Source of the DNA: Planctomycetaceae bacterium
GTDB taxonomy: Bacteria; Planctomycetota; Planctomycetia; Planctomycetales; Planctomycetaceae
Length of the DNA stretch: 64,000 nt
Reading direction: 5' to 3'
NCBI GenBank assembly: GCA_021732415.1
Contig: JAKFVC010000044.1
Location: 18,327-82,326, forward strand
Positions 7,712-62,299 of this stretch are shown one piece after another. A program made the translations under genes and the position numbers. Numbering within the stretch: position 1 is the first letter of the stretch; every line of letters begins with the position of its first letter. The notes under the pieces are model-generated. The model did not search any database and was not told the DNA's origin. It worked only from the letters and a program-made list of their open reading frames with translations.

Positions 7712-7769
7712 CCCCGTGGCAGACGCTGCTAGCGTCTGCGTTCCGACGCTGGCAGAGTCGGCCACGGGG
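7712..7769. repeat. REPIN-like inverted repeat, family A, copy 1
   Basis: The outer arms are CCCCGTGGC and GCCACGGGG. Inside are two hairpins in opposite orientation, CAGACGCT-AGC-AGCGTCTG-like and CCGACGCT-GCC-AGCGTCGG-like; the right one has one mismatch (AGAGTCG). It sits between the convergent giant adhesin-like gene and the beta-helix gene, where it could also act as a bidirectional terminator. Other copies are at 13989, 48345 and 53202 (solo). Confidence 0.85.
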
Positions 7770-7787
7770 CACACGTACTGACGCGAG

Positions 7788-10356: not shown

Positions 10357-10401
10357 TTTGATCACTTCTTCGCCAATGGCGCAGAGGTCTTAGCAGAATA
10401 G

Positions 10402-13896: not shown

Positions 13897-13988
13897 GATT
13901 CTTGCCTTATTCAACGAAAAGATTGGGCGCACGCGAACCGCGTGCGCCCAATTTCATACAGACATAACACGTTGATCAGGTGAGTTGG

Positions 13989-14050
13989 GCCCCGTGGCCG
14001 ACGCTGCCAGCGTCGGTGTTCGCAGACGCTAGCAGCGTCTGCCACGGGGC
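13989..14050. repeat. REPIN-like inverted repeat, family A, copy 2 (best copy)
   Basis: Outer arms GCCCCGTGGC and GCCACGGGGC enclose two 8-bp, 3-nt-loop hairpins: CCGACGCT-GCC-AGCGTCGG and CAGACGCT-AGC-AGCGTCTG. One base pair differs between them in a compensated way (C-G against A-T), as expected if the folded form matters. GGTGAG and CTCACC extend the pairing outward. It lies between the LRR gene and the oxidoreductase gene, both on the minus strand. Confidence 0.9.
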
Positions 14051-14066
14051 TCACCTGCTTCACAGA

Positions 14067-18790: not shown

Positions 18791-18866
18791 GTAGGATGGC
18801 CGCCCCGGCCGTCTTCTTCGTATTCTCAAGATCTCAAAAAGGGACGGGCAAGAGTGCCCATCCTAC
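18791..18866. repeat. REPIN-like inverted repeat, family K, copy 1
   Basis: The arms start GTAGGATGG and end CCATCCTAC. The left hairpin is GATGGCCG-CCC-CGGCCGTC; the right one, read on the minus strand, is GATGGGCA-CTCT-TGCCCGTC. Stem bases differ but both pair over 8 positions with a shared T-G wobble. GTAG stands at the foot of both hairpins. It ends 2 nt before the DUF1552 stop codon. Confidence 0.75.
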
Positions 18867-23677: not shown

Positions 23678-23747
23678 GTAGCCCGACTCTCTGAGTCGGG
23701 TAAACTAATCTGCGGTCGAATGCTCCCGACTCAGAGAGTCGGGCTAC
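23678..23747. repeat. REPIN-like inverted repeat, family D (perfect 23-bp arms)
   Basis: The left arm 23678-23700 begins GTAGCCCGACTC and folds as CCCGACTC-TCT-GAGTCGGG. The right arm 23725-23747 is its exact reverse complement. GTAG is at the foot of each hairpin. A solo half copy lies at 42173. It sits between the divergent DUF1592 and DUF1501 genes, so it is in their promoter region. Confidence 0.9.
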
Positions 23748-23804
23748 AGGCTCGGCTGACGCCTTGCAGATGTGTGTTGACGTGACTTGTCCAGGGAGTA
23801 GTTG

Positions 23805-25227: not shown

Positions 25228-25334
25228 GTAGCCTTCACGCTCCGCGTGAAGATCGCCGAGCGTGCGGTTAACGTTGAATACGTTAGACCTTGGTCCGCGC
25301 GCCCGGCTTTCTTCGCGCGGAGCGTGAAGGCTAC
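25228..25334. repeat. REPIN-like inverted repeat, family B, copy 1
   Basis: It begins GTAGCCTTCACGC and ends GCGTGAAGGCTAC. The left hairpin is CTTCACGC-TCC-GCGTGAAG and the right one is a near-identical inverted copy (one mismatch). The centre of about 55 nt is unique. The element starts 1 nt after the DUF1501 stop codon and ends 59 nt before the next start, so it sits between two co-directional genes. The second copy is at 40817. Confidence 0.85.
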
Positions 25335-27923: not shown

Positions 27924-27933
27924 AACCTGAAAA

Positions 27934-28011
27934 TACAAGCTCGCAGCGCAAGCGAGTGCATTGTCCCTCGGGTAAATTGCGGAATGCACTCGCTTGCGCT
28001 GCGAGCTTGTA
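27934..28011. repeat. REPIN-like inverted repeat, family E (perfect 29-bp arms)
   Basis: The arms 27934-27962 and 27983-28011 (TACAAGCTCGCAGCGCAAGC onward) are exact reverse complements around a 20-nt centre. It lies between the convergent PIG-L and SDR genes and can serve as a terminator in both directions. Confidence 0.9.
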
Positions 28012-28034
28012 ATCTCAGACACGGCTAGGTCAAT

Positions 28035-32997: not shown

Positions 32998-33008
32998 CGC
33001 ATTGGGCC

Positions 33009-33073
33009 GTAGCCACGCTCGCCAGAGCGTGGGAATGATGCGGCAAAGCCCACGTTCTGGCGAACGTGGCTAC
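33009..33073. repeat. REPIN-like inverted repeat, family C, copy 1
   Basis: It begins GTAGCCACGCTC and ends GAACGTGGCTAC. The left hairpin is CCACGCTC-GCCA-GAGCGTGG; the right, on the minus strand, is CCACGTTC-GCCA-GAACGTGG. The tetraloop is the same while one stem pair changes from C-G to T-A. It lies in the leader of the AraC gene. Confidence 0.9.
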
Positions 33074-33129
33074 GACGCTCAGTATAGAAATGCAGGTACT
33101 CGAATGGCAGGCTGCTTACAGGTGGTCGA

Positions 33130-35466: not shown

Positions 35467-35549
35467 TTGGGGTGCCACTGGCTCTGCCAGTGCTTTTCGC
35501 GGGTCAACTGACACCCTGCACTGGCAGAGCCAGTGGCACCCAACCCCAA
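35467..35549. repeat. REPIN-like inverted repeat, family F
   Basis: TTGGGGTGCCACTGGC and GCCAGTGGCACCCAACCCCA form the arms (with a short bulge). Each half folds CACTGGC-TCT-GCCAGTG. It occupies the gap between the 88-residue protein and the bc cluster. Confidence 0.85.
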
Positions 35550-37204: not shown

Positions 37205-37269
37205 TTTCGCCATGCTCGCCAGAGGGTATGTTGACGGCATATCGCCCACACTCTGGCGAGCGTGGCAAA
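37205..37269. repeat. REPIN-like inverted repeat, family C, copy 2 (degenerate)
   Basis: TTTCGCCATGCTCGCCAGAG faces CTCTGGCGAGCGTGGCAAA. The GCCA loop of family C is kept in both halves, while the GTAGCC ends are eroded. It lies between the Rieske and cytochrome b-c genes. Confidence 0.65.
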
Positions 37270-40764: not shown

Positions 40765-40816
40765 GGTGCGGATTCCCATTTTGGATTGGGGGGGAACTCT
40801 ATAAGGATTCAGGATA

Positions 40817-40921
40817 GTAGCCTGCACGCTCGGCGTGAAGTATGCCGTGCACGCGGACAAGGTACAGGTATTTCACGTCAACTGTGCGCTCGGCTATCTT
40901 CACGCGGAGCGTGAAGGCTAC
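40817..40921. repeat. REPIN-like inverted repeat, family B, copy 2
   Basis: It begins GTAGCCTGCACGC and ends GGAGCGTGAAGGCTAC. The right half is an intact family B hairpin (CTTCACGC-TCC-GCGTGAAG on the minus strand); the left is slightly eroded. The unique centre differs from copy 1. It stands between PhyH-like and DapA-like genes. Confidence 0.85.
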
Positions 40922-40923
40922 TT

Positions 40924-41881: not shown

Positions 41882-41946
41882 GTAGCCACGCTCGCCAGCG
41901 CGTGGGCATTCACCGTCGTTTCTCACGTTCTGGCGAACGTGGCTAC
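41882..41946. repeat. REPIN-like inverted repeat, family C, copy 3
   Basis: It begins GTAGCCACGCTCGCCA and ends TGGCGAACGTGGCTAC. The right hairpin is intact; the left has GCG in place of GAG, weakening its stem. It lies 53 nt upstream of the PhyH-like start codon, in the divergent promoter region. Confidence 0.88.
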
Positions 41947-42196: not shown

Positions 42197-42216
42197 GGTT
42201 CGGTGGAGTTGAAGTG

Positions 42217-47100: not shown

Positions 47101-47185
47101 CCGGGGGGCTTTCGCACAAATGTGACGTGGACTCGGAACTTAGACGATTCAGACTATTGCGTCGTCCCGACGGAATGCAGTTTTC

Positions 47186-48295
47186 TCACAGAACCAATCT
47201 CAATTTGACGTAACGGATCCCGGAGCCTGACGGTTGGATGCACCAGATTGCGGCCAGCCATGTTCCATCCGTCAATCGGGCAATACTGGGTTCTCCAAAC
47301 GAAAAATCGCTCCACTCGCTGAGATTTCCAGACGACGCCGATTGTGTTCGTGTTTCTGCTCGCCAGAGATAGTCATCGTGCTCGATTCCAAAGTCGGTGT
47401 CGGTGGGACGAACGATGGCGGCCTTGACGCCGGGGTCACCATGCTTGCGTTGGTTGTAGAGAAATACGGCGCGACCATCAGGGAGTGGGGCTAATGCGGT
47501 GGTCTGTCCGAGAATTCCCGTGGACGTTGTCGGAGTCCAGGTTGCTCCGCCGTCGTGCGATAACGCGAAGGCATTGGGCAATTCTCCGCCGGGTGCCGCC
47601 ACCTGCCAGCAGGTTCCCAGCAGGCGACCGTCGGTCAGTTCGATGATCCAGGCTTCGGCACCGCAACTGGTGGGGTGAGTAAAGCGGAGCATCGACGTGT
47701 GCCGCCAGGTACCGCCCTGATCATCAGAAAAGACAACCACGACCTGGCTGTGATCAACCTTCAATCCTGGGTCAAACGTATTGCCCGGTGAATAACAGGC
47801 CAGCCAGCGGCCCGTCCGCGTAACGCAGAGCGGACCCGGGGCTTCAGCGGAACCCGGGATCGGCATGGGGATCACGGTCGGATCCGTCCACGAATGCCCG
47901 TCGTCGGACGATGACGACCAGATTAGTTCGTTGGCTTTCAGGCCGAGAGTGACCGTGCTCCAGTTGGATTCGCCGGGGATGTCGATCTTCGTCCGTGTGC
48001 CATAGAGGAACAGTTTCCCGGAATAGGGATCGCGGCTGATGGCGGTGAAGTTCGACCATTTTGAACTGAGGTGTGGCCAGACAATGCAGGGTTCGGTCCA
48101 CGTTTTGCCGTTGTCGATCGAGCGGGCTAATGCTGGAACAAAATCATTCGTTGCCGTTTGTGCGGAGTACATGAAGGAACAAATCACGTCGCCGCTGGGC
48201 AGGACCGCCAACCTGGGACCGATGGCAATGTCGGTCCCGCGAGCGACCGGCGACTGTTGTCGGATGAAGCCTTGTTCCAGCGTTTCCCAATGCAT
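47186..48295 (-). CDS. Sialidase-like (BNR/Asp-box) beta-propeller protein
   Basis: The product has 369 residues and no visible signal peptide. Four Asp-boxes are clear: SIDNGKTW, SSDDGHSW, SDDQGGTW and SHDGGATW. These mark the turns of a six-bladed sialidase-type propeller. N-terminal RGTDIAIGPRLAVLPSG and C-terminal FSFGEPSIARLTDGTWLAAIWC fit the fold, and an Arg near the start could be part of the carboxylate-binding triad. Without an Arg triad confirmed by alignment, sialidase activity is not shown. Family A and I repeats lie directly upstream. Confidence 0.8.
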   Translation of the reverse strand: MHWETLEQGFIRQQSPVARGTDIAIGPRLAVLPSGDVICSFMYSAQTATNDFVPALARSIDNGKTWTEPCIVWPHLSSKWSNFTAISRDPYSGKLFLYGTRTKIDIPGESNWSTVTLGLKANELIWSSSSDDGHSWTDPTVIPMPIPGSAEAPGPLCVTRTGRWLACYSPGNTFDPGLKVDHSQVVVVFSDDQGGTWRHTSMLRFTHPTSCGAEAWIIELTDGRLLGTCWQVAAPGGELPNAFALSHDGGATWTPTTSTGILGQTTALAPLPDGRAVFLYNQRKHGDPGVKAAIVRPTDTDFGIEHDDYLWRAETRTQSASSGNLSEWSDFSFGEPSIARLTDGTWLAAIWCIQPSGSGIRYVKLRLVL

Positions 48296-48310
48296 GTCGT
48301 GATTTCCATT

Positions 48311-48428
48311 CGTAGAAGAATTCGTGAGAATTCTTGCGTCGTCGGCCCGTGGACGACGCTGCCAGCGTCGGATCCCAGACGCTAGCAGCGTCTGCCACGG
48401 GCTGTGGAATTCTTACGAATTCCGCTAG
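48311..48428. repeat. REPIN-like inverted repeat, family I, copy 2, interrupted by a family A element
   Basis: The left half is CGTAGAAGAATTCGTGAGAA onward (fold AGAATTC-GTGA-GAATTCT). The right half, on the minus strand, is CTAGCGGAATTCGTAAGAAT onward (loop GTAA). A complete family A element (48345-48402) lies between the halves where copy 1 (30883-30950) has only a short linker. The outer end reaches the TAG stop codon of the large secreted protein. Confidence 0.75.
48345..48402. repeat. REPIN-like inverted repeat, family A, copy 3 (nested)
   Basis: CCCGTGG and CCACGGG arms hold the two family A hairpins (GACGCTGCCAGCGTC and CAGACGCT-AGC-AGCGTCTG). It lies inside a family I element, which implies that family A moved after family I was in place. 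Confidence 0.85.
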
Positions 48429-50206
48429 TTGGGTTTTGTCTCAAACGTGGCATCGGCCCCAAGGGAAGTTCCAGTCTCATTCACTCCCACCAGGCGATAG
48501 TGATAGACCTTTCCGGGCTGCAAGCCGACTAAATTGCCGATCGCGGTGCGCGGCACAATTTGCAGGCCGCCGTACTGCGGCTCGGACTTCTGTCCGTACT
48601 GCGTATCGAGGCCATATTCAAAATAAAACTGCGTCTTCTTGCCGAGTGGATTCAGTCGCCCTTCGACCTTGGCCGTCGTGCTGCTGATGCGGCTGGAAGG
48701 GCCGGTGATGACTTGCGGTTTGGTGTCCGCGGGGAGCTCAGTGATTTGATCTGCTCCGGTTTTTGTGCCGGCGGAATTCGTGGCCACCAGTCGATAATGA
48801 ATTGGTTTTCCTGATGGCAGATCGCTCACATCAAGGGTCACATGGTACCAGTCATCATCAGTCTGCATGGTCGCCCCGGTGCCGAAGAGTTCTATCTCAC
48901 CGAGTCCCCAATGTTTCGGCTGATAACCAGAGAGAATTCGCACCTTGGCCTGCCGCGCGGGAGCCTGTAATTTCCGTTGCAGCAAAAAGGCATAGTTGGC
49001 TCCGATGGGCGAGTCTTTCGGCATCTCCTTCTTCAGCAGCGGCTTCCAGGCTTGGCCATCGTCGGAGACCAGCACTTCGATCTCGCGGCTGGGCCATTGC
49101 GGGTGTTGATGAATCTGGGCGGACTCAATGGTGACGGGTGAATCGAATTCGTAGGTAAATTCCAGCGGACCTTGTGGTTGGGCGGCGCTGTGCCACATCT
49201 TGCCGGCTCCATGTCGCCAGCCGTCCTGGAGCGTGGCGGGATCGGTGCTGGAGCCGGCGGGGGAGCTCAATAGCTTGCCGCCGTTTGAAGGAAGCAGCAG
49301 CGAATAGTTGCGGTAGGCGACTTCAAACTCATCGAAATCGATCGAGCCTGTTGGGTGTTTGGCGGGATCGACGAAGATCACCATGTGGAAGAAGTCTAGA
49401 TTGAGATGCCGTTGGACGTCGTCGATGGGCCAGTAGATGTAGCGGGCCTCACCGCGGTTGTTCCCGGCGAAGCTCCAGTAGTTGGTGTCGTGGACTAGAC
49501 GATATTCGGATCGCTCCCAATTGCCGGTCAGCAGGAGGTCCGTGAGGTAATGTCCGGTGTAGGCCCAGTTGGAATGGCGATAGTTCGGGTGGAGGGTGGA
49601 CTCGTTGGGATTGATGTCGATGTTGCTTTGGCTCTGCGACCACCAGGCCAGTTCGGTCCCGTTTGGAATCCACTTGTTGCCCCGCACGGCGATCTTGATT
49701 CGTGCATCGCGAAAGTCAGGATCTCCGGCCGCGAGAAAGGCACTCGGCAAGGCCGGCATGCTGACACCACCCGGATACATGTATTTGGCAAGATGGACCG
49801 TGCCGACGGCATCGTCATGGTTGTGATCATCGCGCGACTTGGAATAACGAATGAAGCCGCGCGAGGCTCCCCCTTCCTTAAAATGTTCGCGCACGGCGGA
49901 CCACGAACCCCAGCCGTTCCAGCCTTCGTCCCAGGTCTCGTGATAGAATGCCGCGAGCTTGGGAGGCAGGGTTTGCTCGGGAGTGCGATGCCCGTATTGC
50001 GCCGTCGGTCCGTATTCGAAATAGTATTTTGTCGGGAGCGAATGCGGCTGTATGCGACCGTTAACGCTGAGGCCGGTGATCCCCAGCAGTGTCGCCGGAC
50101 GGGTTTCGACCTCGGCCGGCGGGTCTGCCGCGTGGAGCGGAACTAGCGTGACCATTAGCCCAAGCAGGCAGATAGAGCAGGACATTGCCGTATAGCGGCG
50201 GGCCAT
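48425..50206 (-). CDS. Large secreted protein with duplicated YFEYG module and discoidin-like domain
   Basis: The product has 593 residues from ATG 50206 (GGAGAT upstream; the longer frame lacks a signal). The signal peptide is CSICLLGLMVTLVPLHA. A fibronectin-like module occurs near the start (GRIQPHSLPTKYYFEYGPTA) and again near the C-terminus (GRLNPLGKKTQFYFEYGLDT), an internal duplication. The middle has a Trp-rich domain (ETWDEGWNGWGSWSAV, RGEARYIYWPIDDVQRHL) and a jelly-roll-like part (PLEFTYEFDSPVTIESAQIH, AKVRILSGYQ..HWGLGEIELFG) typical of discoidin or F5/8-type carbohydrate-binding domains. It probably binds extracellular glycans; no enzyme motif is recognised. Confidence 0.75.
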   Translation of the reverse strand: MARRYTAMSCSICLLGLMVTLVPLHAADPPAEVETRPATLLGITGLSVNGRIQPHSLPTKYYFEYGPTAQYGHRTPEQTLPPKLAAFYHETWDEGWNGWGSWSAVREHFKEGGASRGFIRYSKSRDDHNHDDAVGTVHLAKYMYPGGVSMPALPSAFLAAGDPDFRDARIKIAVRGNKWIPNGTELAWWSQSQSNIDINPNESTLHPNYRHSNWAYTGHYLTDLLLTGNWERSEYRLVHDTNYWSFAGNNRGEARYIYWPIDDVQRHLNLDFFHMVIFVDPAKHPTGSIDFDEFEVAYRNYSLLLPSNGGKLLSSPAGSSTDPATLQDGWRHGAGKMWHSAAQPQGPLEFTYEFDSPVTIESAQIHQHPQWPSREIEVLVSDDGQAWKPLLKKEMPKDSPIGANYAFLLQRKLQAPARQAKVRILSGYQPKHWGLGEIELFGTGATMQTDDDWYHVTLDVSDLPSGKPIHYRLVATNSAGTKTGADQITELPADTKPQVITGPSSRISSTTAKVEGRLNPLGKKTQFYFEYGLDTQYGQKSEPQYGGLQIVPRTAIGNLVGLQPGKVYHYRLVGVNETGTSLGADATFETKPN

Positions 50207-50361
50207 GATCGAGATCTCCATGGTCGTAGGCGGGTCGATTCGGTCGATCAGACATTTTTCAAAATGCCGAGCGAAGGCGGAGTCATGGTAGCACGTGAAT
50301 AACACGGAATCGACGCACTAGGCAGGTCGGTGGTGCGTACCATTGAATGGTGCGAGATCAG

Positions 50362-50383
50362 GTAGCCACGTTTGCCAGAACGT
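50362..50383. repeat. Solo half copy of REPIN family C
   Basis: GTAGCCACGTTTGCCAGAAC onward is a single family C hairpin with the terminal GTAGCC and the GCCA loop. No inverted partner is nearby. Confidence 0.7.
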
Positions 50384-50500
50384 ATCTGCTGTGCGTGACA
50401 TTCGAACTTCGTTTTACATGGAATAATTTCATCTTCAGATTTCGGTAACTCATTAGCCGAACGATGAGAGTGACCTTCCACTATCCCAATTTTTGTATTT

Positions 50501-50569
50501 CTTCGTGTCCTTTGTGACCTTCTGTTCCAATCGCATTCTTTTGAACAGAAGGTCACAAAGGACACGAAG
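50501..50569. repeat. Inverted repeat family H, copy 1 (perfect 27-bp stem)
   Basis: The left arm starts CTTCGTGTCCTTTGTGACC; the right arm 50543-50569 is its exact reverse complement; the loop is 15 nt. There are no inner hairpins, so the type differs from families A-F. Copy 2 is at 54927. Confidence 0.9.
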
Positions 50570-50778
50570 ATTTGCCAAAGAGATTCAAGAGGATGCGGGG
50601 ATCGTAAGTCTTCTGAACTCTCAAGTGGCAGGCTATTGCAGCGGAGCGAGCTTCCTCTAATTCTCGCCGATCCGAGTTTTGCTCTTGGTTCCGCGCACGC
50701 ATAAAGATATGCTTAAACGTAATCTGGACAAGTTGAGTCAGTGCGTTTCTGGGTATTCCCCTGCCGGAGGTCGCTACG

Positions 50779-52098
50779 ATGAGTTCAATTTTAGGTACTC
50801 ACCTAAACAATGGCGTATCGCGTCGCGGTGTGTTGCAGGCTGGATTGGCCGGGATGTTCGGCCTGTCACTGCCAGAGATGTTGCGATTGCAGGCTCAGGG
50901 GGCCGAACCCGGACGCAAACCGCGTGACGCGGCCGTGATTTTTGTGGAGCTCGCGGGCGGACCGACTCAGCACGAGACCTACGATCCCAAGCCGGATGCT
51001 CCACTGGAATACCGCGGACCACTGCAGGCCATCGACACTCAACTGCCAGGTGTGTACTTCAGTGAATTGATGGTCGAGCAGGCTCGGATCGCCGACAAGT
51101 TGGCGATTATCCGCTCGATCACCCATGATTCCGGCAGTCACAGTACGAGCACCCATCTCACGCAGACCGGCTACTATCTTCGCAATCCACAGAACCGCGA
51201 GAACGAAATGCCTTCCGCGGGGTCGATAGTTGCCAAGCTGCGCGGTTCGAGTGACGAAGGTGTGCCAGCCTATGTTTCCATTCCCTCTAGTACGCGGTTC
51301 GGTCGCGCGGCGTGGATGAGTCGCGCCTACAATCCGTTCGAGACGGTCAACAACGGGGATGTCGCTGATTTCCAGGTTCCAAACCTGACCTTAAATCAAA
51401 ATTTGACCGGTGATCGACTGCATGATCGCCGCAGTTTGCTGACGGCATTCGACGGGTCACGCAAGCAAGTCGACAATCAGGGTGTCGCTGACGCCATGGA
51501 TCAGTTCACGCGGCAGGCGTTCGAACTCGTAACGGGACCGGCGGCGAGAAAGGCGTTCAATCTGGGGGCGGAAGATCCTCGCATTCGTGCTAAGTATGGT
51601 CAGAACCCGACCGGCCAAAACATGTTGCTGGCCCGCCGACTGGTGGAACATGGAGTGCCCTTCGTCACAGTCCGAGTCAATGGGTGGGATGACCATGGAA
51701 ATATCGCCCAGGCCATGAAAGGCAAAGGCCCATCTTACGATCAAGGTGTCGCAGCCCTGGTGGAAGACATTTACGCACGCGGTCTCGACAAACAGGTGCT
51801 CGTCGTCTGTATTGGTGAATTCGGCCGCACTCCGCGCGTGAATGCCAGTGCGGGTCGTGATCACTGGGGTCAGGTGATGAGTGTTGTCCTAGCGGGTGGC
51901 GGTTTGAAGACGGGCCAGATTGTGGGTTCCTCGGACCGCCAAGGTGCGATTCCCTTGACGCGACCCTATCGTCCGGAAAACGTGCTGGCGATGATCTATC
52001 GCCATTTGGATATCGATACGACCGCCTCGTTCATCGACAACTCGGGCCGGCCGCGTTTCATCTTGGAACGTCGCGAATTGATCACGGAACTGATCTAA
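50779..52098 (+). CDS. DUF1501 domain-containing protein (3 of 6, short form)
   Basis: The product has 439 residues, the shortest of the six. It has a twin-arginine signal SRRGVLQAGLAGMFGLSLPE. Family boxes: VELAGGPTQHETYDPKP, LAIIRSITHDSGSHS, QNMLLARRLVEHGVPFVTV, GWDDHGNIAQAM, VCIGEFGRTPRVN and GRDHWGQVMSVVLAGGGL. It starts the DUF1501-rich stretch that runs to 58.2 kb. GGAGGTCGCTACG stands just before ATG 50779. A short esterase gene follows on the same strand after a 205-nt gap. Confidence 0.9.
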   Translation: MSSILGTHLNNGVSRRGVLQAGLAGMFGLSLPEMLRLQAQGAEPGRKPRDAAVIFVELAGGPTQHETYDPKPDAPLEYRGPLQAIDTQLPGVYFSELMVEQARIADKLAIIRSITHDSGSHSTSTHLTQTGYYLRNPQNRENEMPSAGSIVAKLRGSSDEGVPAYVSIPSSTRFGRAAWMSRAYNPFETVNNGDVADFQVPNLTLNQNLTGDRLHDRRSLLTAFDGSRKQVDNQGVADAMDQFTRQAFELVTGPAARKAFNLGAEDPRIRAKYGQNPTGQNMLLARRLVEHGVPFVTVRVNGWDDHGNIAQAMKGKGPSYDQGVAALVEDIYARGLDKQVLVVCIGEFGRTPRVNASAGRDHWGQVMSVVLAGGGLKTGQIVGSSDRQGAIPLTRPYRPENVLAMIYRHLDIDTTASFIDNSGRPRFILERRELITELI

Positions 52099-52114
52099 AT
52101 TCGAGACCTGTGTC

Positions 52115-52257
52115 GGACGGTCACTCTTGCCCGTCCATGTTGCGGTTCTGAAATCCAGAACAGTCGCAATCGCGTGACCATTGTTGGTCGCGGCGTTTCT
52201 CGTCATCATCGCTCAACTGTCTCTGGAACTCATCGGGGACGGGCAAGCGCGCCCCTC
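52115..52257. repeat. Degenerate inverted repeat, family K, copy 2
   Basis: GGACGGTCA-CTCT-TGCCCGTCC on the left and GGACGGGCAAGCGCGCCCC on the right recall the family K hairpin (CTCT loop, TGCCCGTC stem arm). The halves lie about 100 nt apart and both are eroded; GTAG ends are missing. Confidence 0.45.
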
Positions 52258-52303
52258 TAACAGCCTGCGTTCGGCTGAGCCTTGCTCCTGGGAGGAACCA
52301 ACC

Positions 52304-53188
52304 ATGAAAAAATTGTTGCTATTACTGGCGGTCGTTGTTTGTGAAGCGAACGGTGTCCTGCTCGCGGCTGATCAGCCCGAGATTCTGCTGTGGCCGAAGG
52401 GGATGCCGGAACCGGTCGTTCCCGCCGAGCCCGCGGAGATTGTCGACATGGGGAAGGATGGAATCCAACGCCGGACGAATATCTCGCGACCGCGGTTGTT
52501 CGTGCATGTTCCGCCCGAGGGTACGGCTCGAACTGGGACGGGAATCATCGTGGTGCCAGGCGGAGGTTTTGGGCGATTGGCGGATGGGCATGAAGGCTCG
52601 GAAGCTTGCGAATGGCTGGCGAAGCAAGGCATCGTTGCCTTTCAACTGGCCCATCGAACTCCCACGACCAATCATAAAGAGGTCAACGCCGGCCCGGTTC
52701 AGGATGCTCAAAAGTCCGTGATTGAAGTGCGGTTGCGAGCCAAAGAATATGGCGTTGATCCAAAGAAGGTTGGCGTACTGGGATTCTCGGCCGGCGGCCA
52801 GGTGACAATCGTCGCTGCGTCCAATGACCTGCAGTTTCCGGCGAGCGCGGGGAGTCCGTCCCACAAGCCGGATTTTCTGCTGCTGATCTATCCTTATAAG
52901 ATTTACGATCCAATGACCAAGGCGTTGCGGGCGGATATACATCTGGATTCAGGCCTGCCGCCGACATTTCTCGCGCAGATGGGTGACGATGGTGGCTCGT
53001 TGCCGCAAGGGTCTACCCTGCTCTATCTGGAACTGATCAACAGAAAAATCCCCGCCGAGATTCACATCTATGAGCGTGGTGGGCACGGGTTCGGCATGCG
53101 GGTTCGCCCCGATTCACCGGGGACCGCAGACTGGACCAAACGCGCGACCGAGTGGCTGCAACTGCGAGGCTACGTGAGCAAGTCGTGA
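52304..53188 (+). CDS. Secreted alpha/beta-hydrolase (acetyl-xylan-esterase-like)
   Basis: The product has 294 residues. ATG 52304 has GGGAGGAA upstream and opens a signal peptide (KKLLLLLAVVVCEANGVLLAA); the frame extends 41 codons further upstream without these. The hydrolase core shows IIVVPGGGFG (oxyanion loop, 81-90), the nucleophile elbow GFSAGG with Ser162, MGDDGGS near residue 227 as acid region and RGGHGFGMR with the catalytic His. The pattern fits the BD-FAE/Axe family of sugar esterases. It lies between DUF1501 genes 3 and 4 and converges with the latter across REPIN G. Confidence 0.85.
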   Translation: MKKLLLLLAVVVCEANGVLLAADQPEILLWPKGMPEPVVPAEPAEIVDMGKDGIQRRTNISRPRLFVHVPPEGTARTGTGIIVVPGGGFGRLADGHEGSEACEWLAKQGIVAFQLAHRTPTTNHKEVNAGPVQDAQKSVIEVRLRAKEYGVDPKKVGVLGFSAGGQVTIVAASNDLQFPASAGSPSHKPDFLLLIYPYKIYDPMTKALRADIHLDSGLPPTFLAQMGDDGGSLPQGSTLLYLELINRKIPAEIHIYERGGHGFGMRVRPDSPGTADWTKRATEWLQLRGYVSKS

Positions 53189-53201
53189 TTACGCCCCAAT
53201 G

Positions 53202-53228
53202 CCCCGTGGCCGACGCTGCCAGCGTCGG
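53202..53228. repeat. Solo half copy of REPIN family A
   Basis: CCCCGTGG followed by CCGACGCT-GCC-AGCGTCGG is one family A half. The inverted partner is absent; family G starts 8 nt later. Confidence 0.8.
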
Positions 53229-53235
53229 TCGCGAA

Positions 53236-53323
53236 TTTTTGTGAGCGGAATGGCGCTAGCCACCGGTTTGGTATTTCAATCGCGTTAAAAAACCGGTGGC
53301 TAGCGCCATTCCGCTCACAAAAA
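53236..53323. repeat. REPIN-like inverted repeat, family G (perfect 34-bp arms)
   Basis: The left arm 53236-53269 starts TTTTTGTGAGCGGAATGGCG; the right arm 53290-53323 is its exact reverse complement; 20 nt lie between. Each arm also folds around GGCGCTAGCC. It ends 3 nt before the stop codon of the convergent DUF1501 gene, and its A/T outer ends give T-tracts on both strands, so it should work as a bidirectional terminator. Confidence 0.92.
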
Positions 53324-53325
53324 AC

Positions 53326-54774
53326 TTACCCCGCGTAAACCGCACTGATCGGCGTCCCCACCGTCACCGGATACGGACGGTTCAGGGGATCGAAATAATG
53401 GTCGTCGCGAGAGATCCCGAGCGCGGCAAAGATCGTCGCGGCGATGTCCCAGGGGCCGTAGCTTTCTGAGGCGGGGTACGCTCCGTAGCGATCGGTCTTG
53501 CCGACGACCTTGCCCTGCGAGACCCCTGCCCCGGCCATCAGGATCGAATAGGCTGCGGCCCAGTGTTTGCGGCCGGGGCTGGATCCGAGAAAGTTGCGTT
53601 CGAGGGCCACCAACGGGGCGCGGCCGAATTCGCTCATGCAGATGACGAGCGTATCGTCCATCATGCCGCGCGATCCCAAGTCTTCCAGTAGAGCGGAAAA
53701 ACTTTGATCGAAGCGCGGTAGCAGTCGGTTCTGCAGGACGTCGAAGATGTCGTTGTGCGTGTCCCAGCCATAGTACTCATCATCTTCTGGGTGTAAGTCC
53801 TGGCCACGGCTTTGATGATTCCAGACGACCGTGATCAAGGGGACGCCAGCCTCGGCCAGGCGCCGGGCGAGGAGGCACGCCTGACCGGCACGGTGGCGTC
53901 CGTAACGGCGGCGGAGTTGGTCGGGTTCGGTGGAGAGGTCGAAGGCCTCTCGAGTACGCGGGTCGGCGAGCAACTCAAACGCCTTGTGATATTGGCCGTT
54001 GAGATCGGTCATGCGCGTGCTGGCATCGTGATTTTTTAAGGAACGATCAATGGCGGCCAGCAGGCGCTCTCGCTCGCGAATGCGGACTGACGGCAACTCC
54101 GGCTGAGAGACCAGTCCGGGGATGGCCACGGCGTCGGCGTTCACGTTGCCGACGAACATCGGGTCGAAGTCTCGTCCCAATAATCCGCCGAATTGACCGG
54201 GGGCGATATCTTGTGGTGCGACGATAGCCGGCCCATTGAGTTGAATCGCGGGCGCGATTGTTCCTTCGCCGGGACGCAGTCGTTGATAGATCGACATCAG
54301 CGACGGCAGGTCGGTCGGTTTCGGAACAGGGTTGGAAGTGATTCGAGCATGGTATTGCCCGGTCAACGATAAGTAGACCGCCGAACCATGATCCACGTCG
54401 GCATGCGACATCGTCCGGATCAGCGTGTATTTGTCGGCGAGACGTGCCATCCGCGGCAGATGTTCGGAGAGGATGGTTCCAGGCACCGAGGTGGAGATTG
54501 GGGCGAACGCACCGCGGATCTCGAGGGGAGCGTCAGGCTTCGGATCCCACATCTCAAGCTGGCTCTGGCCGCCGCTGGCGAACACCACGATCACCGATTT
54601 GGCCCGACGAACACCACCCAGCGAATTTTTCAGAGAGCTGGCGGCGACACGGTCCGCGCCCGAAGCGCTCGGCCAACCCGCGGCGGTCAGGGCACCCAGG
54701 CTGGCGATGCGGAGAAACTCCTGCCGATTGAGGTCTCTGCGGTTCCCGGTTCGCTCATCAAAGAATCGCAGCAT
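53326..54774 (-). CDS. DUF1501 domain-containing protein (4 of 6, RQ instead of RR)
   Basis: The product has 482 residues. The signal region is LNRQEFLRIASLGALTAAG: the twin-arginine pair is reduced to Arg-Gln, so Tat export is less certain. Boxes: VFASGGQSQLEMWDPKP, YTLIRTMSHADVDHGSA, ARRLAEAGVPLITVVWNH, GWDTHNDIFDVLQNRLLPRFDQ, ICMSEFGRAPLVALE and GRKHWAAAYSILMAGAG. The GRTP box is GRAP here. It is the only minus-strand member of the cluster and converges with the esterase gene. Confidence 0.9.
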   Translation of the reverse strand: MLRFFDERTGNRRDLNRQEFLRIASLGALTAAGWPSASGADRVAASSLKNSLGGVRRAKSVIVVFASGGQSQLEMWDPKPDAPLEIRGAFAPISTSVPGTILSEHLPRMARLADKYTLIRTMSHADVDHGSAVYLSLTGQYHARITSNPVPKPTDLPSLMSIYQRLRPGEGTIAPAIQLNGPAIVAPQDIAPGQFGGLLGRDFDPMFVGNVNADAVAIPGLVSQPELPSVRIRERERLLAAIDRSLKNHDASTRMTDLNGQYHKAFELLADPRTREAFDLSTEPDQLRRRYGRHRAGQACLLARRLAEAGVPLITVVWNHQSRGQDLHPEDDEYYGWDTHNDIFDVLQNRLLPRFDQSFSALLEDLGSRGMMDDTLVICMSEFGRAPLVALERNFLGSSPGRKHWAAAYSILMAGAGVSQGKVVGKTDRYGAYPASESYGPWDIAATIFAALGISRDDHYFDPLNRPYPVTVGTPISAVYAG

Positions 54775-55182
54775 GCAGTTTCTTCCGGTAGTTTCGCCAT
54801 AGAGGTGCGCTCCATCAACGATAGCTCCAGATCAGGGTGGGATCAAGCCGAGCTGATTCTGGGGATCTTGAAACACCTGAGCTGTTTGACGAGTCTCTCC
54901 GATTACCTTCAACGAACTCTTCTTTTCTTCGTGTCCTTTGTGGCCTTCTGTTCCAATCTCTTTTTTAACAGAAGGTCACGAAGGTCACGAAGGAAGAAAG
55001 AACATATCAAATCGAGACTCTGACTTTGCTGGAAGAAAACGATTTCCGAGAATTTGAGTGAGATCTTATGTCGCATCTTTTATCGAACGATTTATCGGGT
55101 TACGATGGGGTCTCTGAAATAGGGTGGTTCGATCTCCACCATGCGCTCGCTGCTCGTTCCGGAAAAATCTTGCGGAGGCCTC
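54775..55182. other. Intergenic region with family H repeat
   Basis: This 408-nt gap lies between divergent DUF1501 genes 4 and 5. It holds family H copy 2 (54927-54992) and otherwise nothing I can name. Promoters for both neighbours should be here. Confidence 0.5.
54927..54992. repeat. Inverted repeat family H, copy 2
   Basis: CTTCGTGTCCTTTGTGGCCT and AGGTCACGAAGGTCACGAAG arms match copy 1 closely. The stem now has a few mismatches (GTGGCC against GGTCAC; CCTTTG against CGAAGG). Confidence 0.85.
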
Positions 55183-56610
55183 ATGGGCAGTGCATCCACA
55201 GTGCCGAACGGTAGTTGCCAGGGATTTCAGCAGGCAGCGCAGCAGTTTCGTCGACGCGAACTGCTGCAACTGGGTGGCGTGTCGCTGTTGTCATCGGGGT
55301 TGCTGAATGTCTTGAATGCCCGGGCTCAGGGGGCTCAACGGAAGGCGCGGATTAAATCGTGCCTGCTGTTGTTCCAGGCCGGTGGTGTCAGCCAGCTTGA
55401 TACCTTTGACATGAAGCCCGATTGTGACGAAACGATCCGGGGCGAATTCCGTCCGATCGACAGCAATGTTCCCGGCATGCCGATTTGCGAACATCTGCCC
55501 AACATGGCGCGGCAGATGGATAAAGTGCTGGTGGTGCGCTCCGTGCATCATCGGATGCTCTGTCACAATCCCGCGATCTACGCCGCTCTGACGGGGCGTG
55601 AAGTGGGCGAGTCACTGGCAGTCTCGAACAAGACGTTTGCGAGCCGTGAAGACTATCCTCATATGGGATCGGTCGTGGGGCGACTGGTTGATAAGCCCGA
55701 CGCGCTGCCGCCGTTTGTGTCTCTCCCCTTCATCCTGCGGAACGGTCCCGCGATCAGTCCGGGCCAGAATGCCGGGTTCATGGGAACCGCTTACGACCCA
55801 TATCTGGTGTTACGTGATCCCAGTTCGGCCAAGTTCAAAATGGATGAACTCGAACTGCCGGCACAAATGAATGAAGACCGGGCCTTGCGACGAAAGAGCC
55901 TCCTGCAGGGTTTTGATGCGGGAATGCGGCGACTGGAAGCCACGGCCTCGGTGGAGGCGGTCGGGGAGAGCTATCGCCGGGCCTACGCGTTGCTCGATTC
56001 GAATTCGACGCGTAGCGCCTTCGATCTCAGCCAGGAAGATGACAAACTGCGTGACCGCTATGGACGCAATCTGGTTGGGCAATCAGCTCTGCTGGGCCGC
56101 CGCCTGGTAGAGGCAGGCGTGCCGTTTGTGACGGTCTACACTCCAGTTGCGGCGATTGATGAGCCCAGTTGGGATACGCACCTCAACAACTTTCCGCGGC
56201 TGAAAAAAGACTTGCTGCCGCCGGTCGATCAGGCGCTGCCCACTCTGCTGGAAGACATGCATTCTCGAGGACTGTTAGACGAGACATTAGTCATCTGGGC
56301 GGGCGAATTCGGGCGGACTCCGCTGATCGGCGCGCGACGTTCCAACAATAGTAACAATACAACCGGACGAGATCATTGGCCCGGTTGCTATACCATTTTA
56401 ATGGCGGGTGGCGGTCTGCCCGGCGGCCAGTATTTCGGATCAAGCGATCGGCTGGGCTGGTATCCGCGAGACAACCCCATCCACATCGCCGACTTAACCG
56501 CGACGATCTACTCCGCATTCGGAATCGATCCATCGCAGGTGATTCCCGATACGCTGGGACGCCCGCATACGCTTTCTGAGGGGCATGCGGTCACGGGATT
56601 GTTTGGATGA
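55183..56610 (+). CDS. DUF1501 domain-containing protein (5 of 6)
   Basis: The product has 475 residues from ATG 55183, which has CGGAGG 6 nt upstream; the ATG 14 codons earlier has none. The twin-arginine signal comes late (FRRRELLQLGGVSLLSSG, about residue 24-40). Boxes: LFQAGGVSQLDTFDMKP, VLVVRSVHHRMLCHNPA, GRRLVEAGVPFVTVYTP, WDTHLNNFPRLKKDLLPPVDQ, IWAGEFGRTPLIGARR and GRDHWPGCYTILMAGGG. A Ser/Asn run (RRSNNSNNTTGRDHW) interrupts the final box region. The next DUF1501 gene follows in the same direction after 115 nt. Confidence 0.9.
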   Translation: MGSASTVPNGSCQGFQQAAQQFRRRELLQLGGVSLLSSGLLNVLNARAQGAQRKARIKSCLLLFQAGGVSQLDTFDMKPDCDETIRGEFRPIDSNVPGMPICEHLPNMARQMDKVLVVRSVHHRMLCHNPAIYAALTGREVGESLAVSNKTFASREDYPHMGSVVGRLVDKPDALPPFVSLPFILRNGPAISPGQNAGFMGTAYDPYLVLRDPSSAKFKMDELELPAQMNEDRALRRKSLLQGFDAGMRRLEATASVEAVGESYRRAYALLDSNSTRSAFDLSQEDDKLRDRYGRNLVGQSALLGRRLVEAGVPFVTVYTPVAAIDEPSWDTHLNNFPRLKKDLLPPVDQALPTLLEDMHSRGLLDETLVIWAGEFGRTPLIGARRSNNSNNTTGRDHWPGCYTILMAGGGLPGGQYFGSSDRLGWYPRDNPIHIADLTATIYSAFGIDPSQVIPDTLGRPHTLSEGHAVTGLFG

Positions 56611-56725
56611 GGGGGCATTAGTTGTTAGCTCTTAGTTCTTTGTCAGTTGTCGCTGGCCTTGGGTTCGGAATGACAGACGGTTTGGAGGCTAGGATCGTGG
56701 GATCCTTGCGAGGGGCTTGTGCATC

Positions 56726-58210
56726 ATGATTCGTCTCTTTGGTAATCCTAAGACGCTTTGTGACGGGGTGACGCGCCGTGACTTGCTGCATCTGGGTGGT
56801 TTGAGTTTGTTCGGCCTGAATCTGGCGGACTTTTCGAGCCTCCAGGCTGCCCAGACTAGCCGTCCCGCTTCAGGTTCGTTTGGGCGGGCCAAGTCGTGCA
56901 TCCTGGTCTATCTGGTGGGGGCTCCGCCGCAACACGAAACCTTCGACCCGAAGCCCGATGCCCCGGCGGCCATTCAAGGGGAACTCAAGGCGATTTCCTC
57001 GGCGATTCCTGGAGTTCCGGTCGGCGAACTGCTCCCCCGTTTTGCGGATATCGCCGACCGCCTGACGATTGTCCGCTCGATGACCCATCAGTGGCCATTC
57101 CATGCTGTGAACTATGCGTTGGCGGGTATTCCCGAGATCAATCCGCGGAAGGAGTCGGATCCGAACGATCGCACGGAATGGCCCTTTATTGGTTCTGTTG
57201 TCGACTACCTCGATACGCGCCGAGAACCTCTCGCGCGGCCGGCGATTCCGCGGAATGTGGCATTGCCGTTTCCGGTTTATGCACACGTCAATTTCCGCTT
57301 GCTGGGTGGTCCGTATGCGGGTTTTCTTGGTCAGCAATACGATCCGCTGTGGACTGCGTTCGATGCTCCCGGCACGCGAGAAGTCCCCGTTCTGGCGGAA
57401 GGTTCTGGAAAGCTGGATCCCTTCGCCGGTATTCGGCCCGACGACCGATTCGTACTGGGACAAAAGCCGTCCGCGGATGCACCGACACTGGCTCGTGTGG
57501 GCTTGCGCCGGTCGTTGCTCGAACAATTCGATGCAACCCGCCGCGATCTCGATGCCCATCCCCGTGTGGGGGGCTATGAGCGGCTGAAACACACGGCCTA
57601 CGATCTGATGTCGAGTGCCGGGTTGGCTCGGGCGCTTGACGTTCAGCTGGAAGCCGAGGCGATGCGGCTCAATTATGGAATGAACCTGTTCGGGCAATCG
57701 CTATTAGCCGCTCGGCGGGTGATCGAGGCGGGCGGCAAGTTTGTGAGCGTTTTCTGGGACACCTACAGCCACTTCGCGAACGGCTGGGATACGCATTCGA
57801 ACCACTATCCCCGGCTCAAGGAATTTCTCCTGCCGGTGTTCGACCATTCGTTCCCGGCGTTCCTGCGCGACATGGAAAGCCGTGGCCTGCTGGACGAAAC
57901 TCTGGTGCTCTGTCTCAGCGAACATGGCCGCACGCCGCAGCTCAACAACCGACCGGGCGGCGGTCGCGAACATTGGTCGCGAGTCTATTCCGTCTGTCTG
58001 GCGGGTGCCGGAGTTGGCCGCGGTCAAGCGATTGGCGAAAGCGACAAGATCGGCGGGGACGTGAAGTCGAATCCCATTTCGCCCAAGGACATTCTGGCCT
58101 CAGCCTTCCACCTCCTGGGGATTGATCCGCACACGACCGTTCCCGACCCATTGGGCCGGCCAGTTCCGGTTGCTGGGGACGGCGTGGTGCATCATGAATT
58201 GTTCGGATAA
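56726..58210 (+). CDS. DUF1501 domain-containing protein (6 of 6)
   Basis: The product has 494 residues, with ATG 56726 after AGGGG; a TTG nine bases earlier is less likely. It has a twin-arginine signal TRRDLLHLGGLSLFGLNL. Boxes: YLVGAPPQHETFDPKP, LTIVRSMTHQWPFHAVNY, ARRVIEAGGKFVSVFWDTYS, GWDTHSNHYPRLKEFLLPVFD, the box as LCLSEHGRTPQLNN (His replaces Phe) and GREHWSRVYSVCLAGAG. It resembles copy 2 in its start (LCDGV.RRD). It shares orientation with copy 5 and may be cotranscribed. Confidence 0.9.
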   Translation: MIRLFGNPKTLCDGVTRRDLLHLGGLSLFGLNLADFSSLQAAQTSRPASGSFGRAKSCILVYLVGAPPQHETFDPKPDAPAAIQGELKAISSAIPGVPVGELLPRFADIADRLTIVRSMTHQWPFHAVNYALAGIPEINPRKESDPNDRTEWPFIGSVVDYLDTRREPLARPAIPRNVALPFPVYAHVNFRLLGGPYAGFLGQQYDPLWTAFDAPGTREVPVLAEGSGKLDPFAGIRPDDRFVLGQKPSADAPTLARVGLRRSLLEQFDATRRDLDAHPRVGGYERLKHTAYDLMSSAGLARALDVQLEAEAMRLNYGMNLFGQSLLAARRVIEAGGKFVSVFWDTYSHFANGWDTHSNHYPRLKEFLLPVFDHSFPAFLRDMESRGLLDETLVLCLSEHGRTPQLNNRPGGGREHWSRVYSVCLAGAGVGRGQAIGESDKIGGDVKSNPISPKDILASAFHLLGIDPHTTVPDPLGRPVPVAGDGVVHHELFG

Positions 58211-58258: not shown

Positions 58259-58329
58259 ATCTCACGCAAAGGCGCTAAGAATACAGTTCATTTCTGTGTT
58301 CTTTGCGCCTTAGCGTCTTTGCGTGAGAT
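58259..58329. repeat. Inverted repeat family J
   Basis: ATCTCACGCAAAGGCGCTAAG faces CTTAGCGTCTTTGCGTGAGAT, with one mismatch in a 21-bp stem around about 29 nt. It stands between the convergent DUF1501 copy 6 and the membrane protein gene, a terminator-like position. No inner hairpins, like family H. Confidence 0.85.
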
Positions 58330-60061: not shown

Positions 60062-60238
60062 CTGAGCGATCCTTCAACAGAGATGGTCATCCCGGGCAGC
60101 GAGTGTCTTCGCGACCTGCACGTCGATCTTACGCCAAACAGACACCGACCGCTGAACATTTTTGCTCAGAAGTCTGTCAATTGGTGATCTCGACGGAGAT
60201 GAAACTTGTCTGAAAATCGACCACTCTCGCGTGTTCGG

Positions 60239-60262
60239 GCCAGCGTTGACGAAGACGCTGGC
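60239..60262 (-). terminator. Hairpin downstream of the LarA-like gene
   Basis: GCCAGCGT and ACGCTGGC pair over 8 bp around 8 nt, about 30 nt after the stop codon of the LarA-like gene. There is no T-tract, so its function as a terminator is uncertain. Confidence 0.4.
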
Positions 60263-60291
60263 TCGCGGGGCGAACAAGGGCACACTTTCGA

Positions 60292-61560
60292 CTATTGACT
60301 AATGCCGACCGAGGTCAGATTTCCCGTCGCGTCGAATTGCATCTCTTGCGGTTGTGAGACGATCTCGAGATCGGGACGTTTCTTGATGTCTTCCAGATAG
60401 GCTTCGGAAACCAGCACCTCGGCCATGTGCAGCGTGTCGGGAATCTGGATGACTTTGGCTCGTTCGGGAGTCGCCAGGCCGATTGTGGTCAGGGCATTCT
60501 CCAGGACTTCGCGATCGGTGTCATACCAGATTGGAGTGGCGGCGGCCGGAGCGTGGCCACCGGTGATGGAGTTGATCGACGTGATGCGGCGATCAATTGA
60601 ATTGACCGTGCGCGTGTTGGTGAATTCGGCCATGCCGATCCCGCAGGCGTTGCCGTGCGTGGCCTCGGTCAAACCGCGGACGAAGACTGTGCGCACCGCG
60701 GTATCGTCCCGATCGGTGGCTTTGTGATCGTTGTATTTGCGGCCGATGACGTTCGTATCCATGCCGGTGCCGCTGATGTTCTTGCCGATTTCGTCGACGA
60801 TGAGGAGATGGACTTGGCGGAAAGGCAAGCGGGGCAGCCATTGCTTGGCGATGACCAGCAGTTCCTTTTCACGCTGGAAGAAATCCTGGGGAGCGACGGC
60901 AGCGATCATGCCCGTTTCGTCGTAAGCGTTTTCGACGATTCCCAGCCCGGCGATGACCTTGCAGTTGCGAATGACGGCGTCAGCCACCGAACGGACGATT
61001 TCGATCCAACTGTAGTCCATAATGGCGCGGTGGTAGATCTTCGCGCCGTTATGCTTACCGAGTCCGATCAGCATCATCTTGTGCAGTCCACTCTCGATAT
61101 CGCCCACAAAGTTCGTGTGCGGCTTCACGCGTCCGCAGACGAAAACGTGATCGGCCTCGGAGGCGAACTTATCAAAGTGGACCGGAATCCCCTGCGGCGT
61201 TTCCGCGACGATGACCGTCTCCATCGAGGCTTTGATCGGGCAACCGCAGTATTCCTCGGTGACTCCGTAGCCTTCGATGATTTCTCGCTGGCCTTCAGCC
61301 GTGCCGCCGCCGTGACTGCCCATCGCGGGAACGATAAAGGGTTTGGCTCCCAGTTTCTGAAAATGCTGGACGGCCGCCTTGATGATCACGGCAATGTTGG
61401 CAATCCCACGGCTGCCGGCGGTGATCGCGACAGTCTGCCCGGGTTGAATTTTTGACTGCAGCTTCAGTGTGGCGAGCTGGCGATCGACTTCGGCTGGGAT
61501 ATTTTCCACCCGGGGCGCGTCAAACTTCTGTCGAATCCGGAGCATCCGCGGAAAAGTCAT
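60292..61560 (-). CDS. LarA-like (DUF2088, lactate-racemase-domain) protein
   Basis: The product has 422 residues from ATG 61560 (GGGAG upstream). The N-terminal domain shows VAITAGSRGIANIAVIIKA and FIVPAMGSHGGGTAEGQ, patterns of DUF2088 proteins, which include the nickel-pincer lactate racemase LarA. The middle part GRVKPHTNFVGDIESGLHKM and GLGKHNGAKIYH supplies several His and Lys where LarA binds its cofactor. The enzyme is probably a nickel-pincer-dependent isomerase of a hydroxy acid or sugar acid; I cannot name the substrate. No cofactor-synthesis genes (LarB, LarC, LarE) are in the window. Confidence 0.8.
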   Translation of the reverse strand: MTFPRMLRIRQKFDAPRVENIPAEVDRQLATLKLQSKIQPGQTVAITAGSRGIANIAVIIKAAVQHFQKLGAKPFIVPAMGSHGGGTAEGQREIIEGYGVTEEYCGCPIKASMETVIVAETPQGIPVHFDKFASEADHVFVCGRVKPHTNFVGDIESGLHKMMLIGLGKHNGAKIYHRAIMDYSWIEIVRSVADAVIRNCKVIAGLGIVENAYDETGMIAAVAPQDFFQREKELLVIAKQWLPRLPFRQVHLLIVDEIGKNISGTGMDTNVIGRKYNDHKATDRDDTAVRTVFVRGLTEATHGNACGIGMAEFTNTRTVNSIDRRITSINSITGGHAPAAATPIWYDTDREVLENALTTIGLATPERAKVIQIPDTLHMAEVLVSEAYLEDIKKRPDLEIVSQPQEMQFDATGNLTSVGISQ

Positions 61561-62299
61561 GCTGTCAACTCCCAACCAATTTCACCAAGTACCGTCAGAA
61601 CAGATGTCGCATCAACCAGAGTTTGCGCCGTCCACACCTATGAGTTTATATCTTCAACTGCAATCAAACCACTCAAGATTGAGACTTGAAACTCGTAGCT
61701 CCTCGCAATTGATCGAATGAAGACCTGTTTTTGAACCACGAATGATCCGAATAACACGAATTGTCGAAGACTTGGATTGTCTTGGGGACAGACCATACGT
61801 TTTTTCGAATGCGGTTCTGAGGGGTTAAATTCGTGTCATTTGTGTTATTCGTGGTTTATCCTCTGAGGTTCTTGCAGTGGTGTTCTGCGGATTGTGGATT
61901 TCACTCTGCACGAAATGCTCGCGGGAAACAGGATTGCGTGCCGGCAGAGATAGACGAAATCTCTGCCGGGTGGTATGACATGATGAATTCATGGGCCTTT
62001 CACAGGTTTCACCGAGTTTTCTAGGCGCTTACGATCTGGGCAGGTTGCTTGTTTACAAGGCAGTCTGGGTGGGTCCGTCGGCCACATCACAAATCCCGAA
62101 TGCGTTCGAAGAGACGTCTTGTCGGCGACGTTAGTAATTGGCAAACAGAGATTTACGAAATTATCGATGGATCCCAGTCGGGTGTTCCCAGTCCTTCACA
62201 AACAATCTGGCTGTTGGCATGAGGGTTGCTTTCACTTCAGGCAGACCCTGCCTTTTGTGGTGACTTCTTCAGCAGTCCGCAACCAGAAGTGGGTGTGTC
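61561..62299. other. Longest gene-free stretch of the window
   Basis: These 739 nt lie between the divergent LarA-like and ATP-grasp genes. The left part has inverted repeat L (61732-61858). The short open frames over 61833-62423 overlap one another in different frames and lack ribosome sites or recognisable sequence. I see no RNA gene. Confidence 0.5.
61732..61858. repeat. Inverted repeat family L
   Basis: TGAACCACGAATGATCCGAA onward faces ATTTGTGTTATTCGTGGTTTA. The arms pair over about 30 nt with a few mismatches (AATAACACGAATT against AATTCGTGTCATT and ATTCGTGGTT against AACCACGAAT). The centre is about 65 nt. The TTCGTG theme recalls families H and J. Confidence 0.65.

Follow-up and report, generated by a model that had tools for sequence, protein, structure and literature searches.

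The described systems closest to the elements reported here are those in which gene-less palindromes belong to a particular gene. Repetitive extragenic palindromes (REPs), their paired form (REP doublets forming hairpins, REPINs) and the REP-associated tyrosine transposases (RAYTs or TnpA-REP, Y1 enzymes of the HUH type) combine one gene per family, flanked by its own palindromes, with gene-less intergenic copies and with covariation of palindrome and protein. In miniature inverted-repeat transposable elements (MITEs) and their parent insertion sequences (ISs), gene-less pairs of inverted repeats accompany a full unit whose gene stands between the same arms. That a genome can harbour several REP families, each served by a separate RAYT, is documented (PMC3733652, PMC6006769, PMC2817692), Stenotrophomonas being an example (PMC2817692). 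Here we analyzed a stretch of 64,000 nucleotides from a Planctomycetaceae bacterium (assembly GCA_021732415.1, contig JAKFVC010000044.1; G000:C19:18327-82326 in our numbering), hereafter the window, whose source genome comprises 9.87 Mb in 350 contigs. It probably holds two unrelated kinds of dispersed palindrome, namely GC-rich REPINs and A+T-richer palindromes built of C[AG]CNNA-type units, the latter being predicted to be cut and spread by a nuclease-like protein, GxxExxY, in the manner of a REP system but with an unrelated enzyme.

An ungapped inverted-repeat scan of the window (scoring +1/-2, score of at least 14) retrieved 16 strong elements, as compared to none in each of five third-order Markov shuffles. 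With the addition of three copies that are weaker or single (18791, 37206 and 53201), the set comprises 19 elements in 11 families, or 12 families if a plain hairpin at 13922 is counted. An earlier sequence-only reading, which by eye had found some 20 inverted repeats in about twelve families, is thus confirmed, apart from small corrections of position. In a sample of the genome (1.99 Mb in 100 stretches, 20% of the 9.87 Mb, window included) we found 450 inverted repeats scoring at least 15, and 3 in a control of one Markov sequence per stretch; the 450 formed 78 clusters, of which 39 have a single member, by a clustering that merges some families and splits others. The heads of six REPIN families of the window matched 12 to 84 times each in this sample and 0 to 6 times in a reversed-sequence control, and the A+T-richer families F1, F2 and F3 gave 26, 25 and 18 matches with none in the control, the F3 pattern being an ad hoc set of alternatives. 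Nearly all families of the window thus recur in the genome. The same reading had named, as results that would speak against it, families occurring only once genome-wide or showing no excess over shuffled intergenic sequence; neither holds for these nine.

In the GC-rich kind, a hairpin with GTAG, GTGG or GGTG as the head at its foot faces its mirror image across a spacer. The other kind has longer, A+T-richer arms, in which two to three C[AG]CNNA-type units stand about 8-11 bp apart, and is represented by two copies of F1 (50500..50570 and 54927..54992, arm TCTTCGTGTCCTTTGTGACCTTCTGTTC), one of F2 (58259..58329, arm ATCTCACGCAAAGGCGCTAAG) and one of F3 (61734..61856, arm AACCACGAATGATCCGAATAACACGAATT). 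Most window elements lie between the longest open reading frames (ORFs), as had been claimed; the accompanying description of them as often close to a stop codon does not suit the palindromes at 50500, 54927 and 61734, which lie upstream of divergent ORFs.

The partner of the A+T-richer palindromes appears to be GxxExxY (TIGR04256/PF13366), a widespread family for which we know of no established function. The source genome has seven PF13366 loci, all above the PF13366 cut-off, and the family profile scored 141.5, 129.7 and 62.4 bits at L064, L067 and L070 (cut-off 35). L064 stands between CACAGAT arms, L065 between CACTAAT arms, L066 between CACAGAA arms and L067 (G000:C22) between F1 arms, which makes L067 the cognate gene of F1; the arms around L070 are of the GACAGAAAAAT type and depart from the C[AG]CNNA pattern. 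At L065-L067 and L070 the flanking elements are complete palindromes. F2-type sequence is present at L069 (G000:C25), which lies at the end of a contig and is the likely cognate of F2; the arm type of F2 also occurs at GxxExxY genes of many phyla. Arms matching F3 were found at a relative's gene (L179); none of the seven PF13366 loci of the source genome has them. L068 failed the bracket test, with a palindrome on one side only, in the predicted N-terminal reading frame. At L068:1486-2058 and L069:106-504 the palindrome is translated in frame as the predicted N-terminal region, and the true starts may be further in.

The arrangement is not confined to this genome. PF13366 was found in 42 of 61 genomes of the host family, and 80 loci were retrieved in a scan of a genome collection; going by their record titles, these represent no fewer than 15 phyla or candidate phyla. 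Requiring full flanks and an inverted-repeat score of at least 14, 47 of 70 GxxExxY genes were bracketed, as compared to 7 of 592 neighbouring ORFs and to 3 of 311 control ORFs shorter than 900 bp. According to their record titles, the 47 loci include planctomycetes, deltaproteobacteria, SAR324, cyanobacteria, Bacteroidetes, Acidobacteria, Verrucomicrobia, Chloroflexi, gammaproteobacteria, KSB1 and Fermentibacteria, many of them metagenome-assembled genomes (MAGs). Within Flavobacterium, the genus of L208, the count was 22 of 29 GxxExxY genes vs 0 of 8 controls, and a looser test (span or flank, score of at least 13, run without a matched control) was positive for 107 of 125 distinct genes. 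GxxExxY genes therefore usually stand between inverted arms, or whole palindromes, of a single arm type.

A similar arrangement was seen at another gene family. PF05635 genes (four-helix-bundle proteins of the 23S rRNA intervening-sequence protein type, IVP) of the host family, L151 and L314-L343, are also bracketed by inverted repeats, with scores of at least 14 in 15 of 29 cases vs 1 of 18 control ORFs, and so is the single PF05635 gene of the source genome (score 17). Many of these arms are tandem heptads (AGTTGAG, TAGGAGT, CAGTGTT and similar), and it is possible that they form a third pair of palindrome and gene.

Arm and protein change together. Protein identity and arm similarity were correlated among 94 genes (Mantel r = 0.55), among 36 genes of the host family (r = 0.46) and in a wide set of 58 genes (r = 0.21), and none of 2000 permutations reached the observed r in any of the three; these values are not exact probabilities, since related sequences are not independent. 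Among the homologues of L067 the arms drift along with the protein. Copy number follows the gene as well. With up to two mismatches, the source genome has 207 F1 arms, and of the 11 genomes that have a homologue of L067 (at least 55% identity), 8 contain at least three F1 arms, vs 2 of 50 others (Fisher p = 2e-6, or 3e-5 when G036 is counted with the others). Exceptions are G030, which has 20 arms and no gene, and G036, with 55 arms though its homologue uses another unit; the L067-homologue genomes without F1 matches (G012, G039 and G047) carry diverged arms.

For F2 we counted exact CGCAAAGNCGCNAAG in 101 Flavobacterium genomes, taking E of 1e-30 or less as the mark of a close homologue. Of the 54 genomes that have a close homologue, 32 hold at least three F2 arms, as do 5 of the 24 with only distant homologues and 0 of the 23 with none (Spearman 0.64), and the 23 gene-less genomes held three matches altogether, in two genomes. 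Genome size confounds this comparison; among genomes of up to 4.3 Mb the counts were 11 of 32 vs 0 of 23 (p = 0.0014). With one mismatch allowed, the F2 pattern was also counted in the 15 genomes behind named records: a Nostoc had 142 matches vs 3 in the control, Dolichospermum 119 vs 0, Flavobacterium rivuli 122 vs 3 and an Acidobacteria MAG 382 vs 13, and four of the 15 were barely above control. In the two groups tested, palindrome copy number thus follows the presence of the GxxExxY gene, with exceptions, and several genomes contain dozens to hundreds of dispersed gene-less copies.

GxxExxY is predicted to be a nuclease of the PD-(D/E)XK type. The residues D...ExK and QxxxY are conserved in an alignment of 60 GxxExxY proteins, a pattern that we take to be the signature of the RecB/Cas4-like branch, and the best fold match is SSO0001, presumably a Cas4. 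With the Cas4/RecB/lambda-exonuclease branch the protein thus shares this match and the QxxxY pair; it differs from that branch in being a stand-alone protein of about 125 aa. PD-(D/E)XK nucleases tied to DNA mobility exist in families other than GxxExxY, among them the putative transposases of the Rpn/PDDEXK_2 group ("recombination-promoting nuclease") and TnsA of Tn7, for which we know of no dispersed cognate palindromes. A literature search outside subscription journals and preprints found the name GxxExxY in two papers, in one of them as a passing mention in another context, and nothing under the arm sequences or PDDEXK_3.

In the mechanism that we propose, the GxxExxY protein would recognise the stacked units of an arm and cut the palindrome in its single-stranded state or once a cruciform has been extruded, as could happen behind a replication fork, and a copy would then be joined elsewhere. 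The gene would be kept as one copy per type, mostly inherited in place, while its palindromes multiply, and the resulting layout would be that of the RAYT "REPtron", reached with an unrelated enzyme.

GxxExxY might instead be an ordinary small IS (arm, gene, arm) that transposes as a whole unit, the solo palindromes being MITEs derived from it by internal deletion. We hold this to be unlikely, albeit worth serious weighing: many of the genes are indeed enclosed by one inverted arm on each side, with about 450-700 bp from outer end to outer end, which is IS anatomy with terminal repeats. However, paralogue identity does not exceed 65% in the source genome (six of the seven copies compared) or 60% in six other genomes with two to three copies compared in each, so that these copies show no sign of the gene having multiplied recently, and the complete palindromes around L065-L067 and L070 do not suit a plain unit with single arms. 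No target-site duplication was detected at 63 elements (2.79 vs 3.22 in permuted data, the element ends being approximate). Insertion sequences without such duplications exist; together, though, the missing duplications and the missing near-identical gene copies argue against a plain IS. A congener provides a further point against it, since its locus L298 (G030:C144:9000-13000) is syntenic with L064 and keeps the same arm type around a frame-broken gene. This locus being conserved, the gene there stayed put while palindromes elsewhere came and went. A congener contig is syntenic with window positions 46705-58209 at 72-83% identity, and none of the elements at 48345, 50500, 53201, 53236, 54927 and 58259 was found in it. 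Several of its gaps are filled by other elements, some from families that the source genome also has; the gap of the second F1 copy (54927) measures 220 bp here and 33 bp in the congener, with diverged edges, and at the 58259 site the end of the congener contig leaves an anchor on just one side.

Alternatively, GxxExxY or a partner could bind the palindromes as operators, terminators or nucleoid-protein sites, their spread being due to ordinary recombination and the nuclease having no part in their mobilisation. Stacked units about 8-11 bp apart do resemble a protein-binding array, and the copies at 50500, 54927 and 61734 lie in divergent gaps. We nevertheless regard this as rather doubtful, given a conserved nuclease active site, the high copy number of the palindromes and their turnover between congeners, and the persistence of arms in G030, which has no gene.

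It is very improbable that RAYT/Y1 transposases mobilised every family, F1-F3 included, as the sequence-only reading had it. The genome does have 13 Y1 loci, and long terminal repeats that lack GTAG are described around some groups of RAYTs (PMC3733652); against this, C[AG]CNNA arms bracket none of the 13, and the arms bracket and covary with GxxExxY and nearly vanish where the gene is absent, as in the 23 gene-less Flavobacterium genomes. Another Y1 parallel in layout is the TIRYT type (tyrosine transposases associated with terminal inverted repeats; PMC3733652, PMC6006769): its gene, too, lies between long, moderately repeated inverted arms, and the IS200-like loci L001-L005 of the source genome resemble it, but its Y1 enzyme is unrelated to GxxExxY. 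That the bracketing is an artefact of annotation or composition, such as palindromes near any small gene in a palindrome-rich genome, can hardly be the case: a loose shared-word test was positive in 235 of 300 control ORFs, whereas the strict test separated GxxExxY genes from controls in both sets, small control ORFs included, and covariation is independent of palindrome density.

With RAYT systems the pair of GxxExxY and its palindromes therefore shares the single gene per family, the flanking palindromes, the gene-less copies and the covariation; it lacks their GT[AG]G head and Y1 gene, having a PD-(D/E)XK-type protein and tandem C[AG]CNNA arms in their place, and it departs from MITEs and their parent ISs in the points given above. 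It thus fails the tested defining features of both systems, and what is new here is limited to this pair.

The GC-rich elements appear to be fresh examples of a kind already known. Their layout is close to the published REPIN form (PMC3733652, PMC6006769), and they show two opposed hairpins and many copies, the copy at 53201 being single; the head is GTAG in four of the six families, GTGG in one and, as a deviation, GGTG in one. The CACGCTC hairpin (up to two mismatches) has 80 matches genome-wide vs 6 for the reversed pattern, and in many of the matches the two sides of the stem have changed together, so that pairing is preserved (CACGTTC...GAACGTG, CACGGTC...GACCGTG, CACACTC...GAGTGTG). A profile search for RAYT-type genes, which the sequence-only reading had proposed, gave 13 PF01797 (Y1) loci, all bracketed by an inverted repeat (scores 18-55; L009 and L011 with revised ORF ends). 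These loci have 12 different repeats because the near-identical neighbours L007 and L008 share one. GTAG-GATGG brackets L010 and GTAG-CCCGACTC brackets L012, both of them window families, so that a cognate RAYT flanked by its own REP was found for two of the six families; none was found for the other four among the Y1 loci of this genome. Against the NCBI model of REP-associated tyrosine transposases, L006 exceeds the cut-off and L007, L010 and L012 give matches that stay under it; L001 and L004 match the IS200 model. L107, a Y1-type gene beyond the 13, has no bracket. In an unbiased screen of the 1.99 Mb, 25 of 1197 ORFs were bracketed at a score of at least 14: seven of them are Y1 or GxxExxY genes, one overlaps L009 in a different frame, and the remaining 17 are other ORFs. 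The GC-rich REPINs with GTAG or GTGG heads have thus likely been spread by several RAYT transposases. The claims of REPIN architecture and of several RAYT-like enzymes accordingly fit the GC-rich majority and fail for 50500, 54927, 58259 and 61734, with their tandem units, headless arms and GxxExxY genes. The option of one loosely specific RAYT is not needed, given the cognates of two families and the separate repeats at the Y1 loci, and the expectation of just one or a few families per REP-type genome has to be softened in view of the multi-family genomes described (PMC3733652, PMC6006769, PMC2817692).

Outside the 13 PF01797 loci, very long inverted repeats (scores 41-95) bracket ORFs at L058:8773-10485, L071:1859-2218 and L103:3560-4045, those of L058 and L071 belonging to the ATGGGAGGGCGAGG family and that of L103 to another; by eye, L058:10009-10485 resembles a distant Y1 relative.

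Along the window, the GTGG-headed REPINs lie at 7712..7769 (hairpin C[CA]GACGCTG..CAGCGTC; this head family gave the 84 sample matches, vs 1 in the control), 13989..14050 (GTGG-CCGACGCTGCC family) and 48345..48402, where the congener's syntenic gap holds a different element; the single GTGG REP at 53201..53233 is on the + strand. The REPIN at 18791..18866 (GTAG-GATGGCCG family) has L010 (G000:C167, bracket score 39) as its cognate RAYT gene, and that at 23678..23747 (GTAG-CCCGACTC) has L012 (G000:C21, score 31). Two copies of the GTAG-CCTTCACGC family, at 25228..25334 and 40816..40922, were retrieved by the scan and by sample clustering. The GTAG-CCACGCTC family, to which the CACGCTC hairpin counts refer, occurs at 33008..33074, in degenerate form at 37206..37269 and as a third copy at 41882..41946, and a GGTG-CCACTGGC REPIN lies at 35470..35541 (sample cluster 11). 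Assigned to neither kind are a paired hairpin of the AAGCTCGCAGCGCAAGCGAG family at 27927..28018 (four members in the sample, cluster 20), a perfect 34-bp inverted repeat, GAGCGGAATGGCGCTAGCCACCGG, at 53236..53323, and the perfect 14-bp hairpin with an AAC loop at 13922-13952, near the REPIN at 13989 and belonging to no identified dispersed family. Elements 13922, 18791 and 40816 overlap the ends of called ORFs, and 27927 and 35470 overlap ORFs of the opposite strand, gene starts being partly provisional. Window positions 12-7706 hold an ORF of 2564 aa with internal repeats of about 312 bp in six copies, 60-71% identical to a reference copy; it likely codes for a repeat-rich surface protein. 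Four of ten window proteins scanned belong to DUF1501 (23802-25223, 42214-43662, 50779-52095 and 55141-56607).

Whether GxxExxY represents a phylum-crossing PD-(D/E)XK class whose enzymes each read and multiply one family of tandem-unit palindromes, making up a second REP-like system of independent origin beside RAYT, with the 23S-IVP genes and their heptad arms as a third, we regard as evenly balanced. For intergenic palindromes of the CACGAAG, CGCAAAG and CACGGAG types near GxxExxY we know of no maker proposed so far. Linking gene and palindrome offers a role that can be tested as well as a recognition system that can be read, in which arm units change with the protein. If the proposed reading is true, an enzyme unrelated to the HUH transposases would have converged on the REP strategy, and the old question of who makes such untagged intergenic palindromes would become directly testable.
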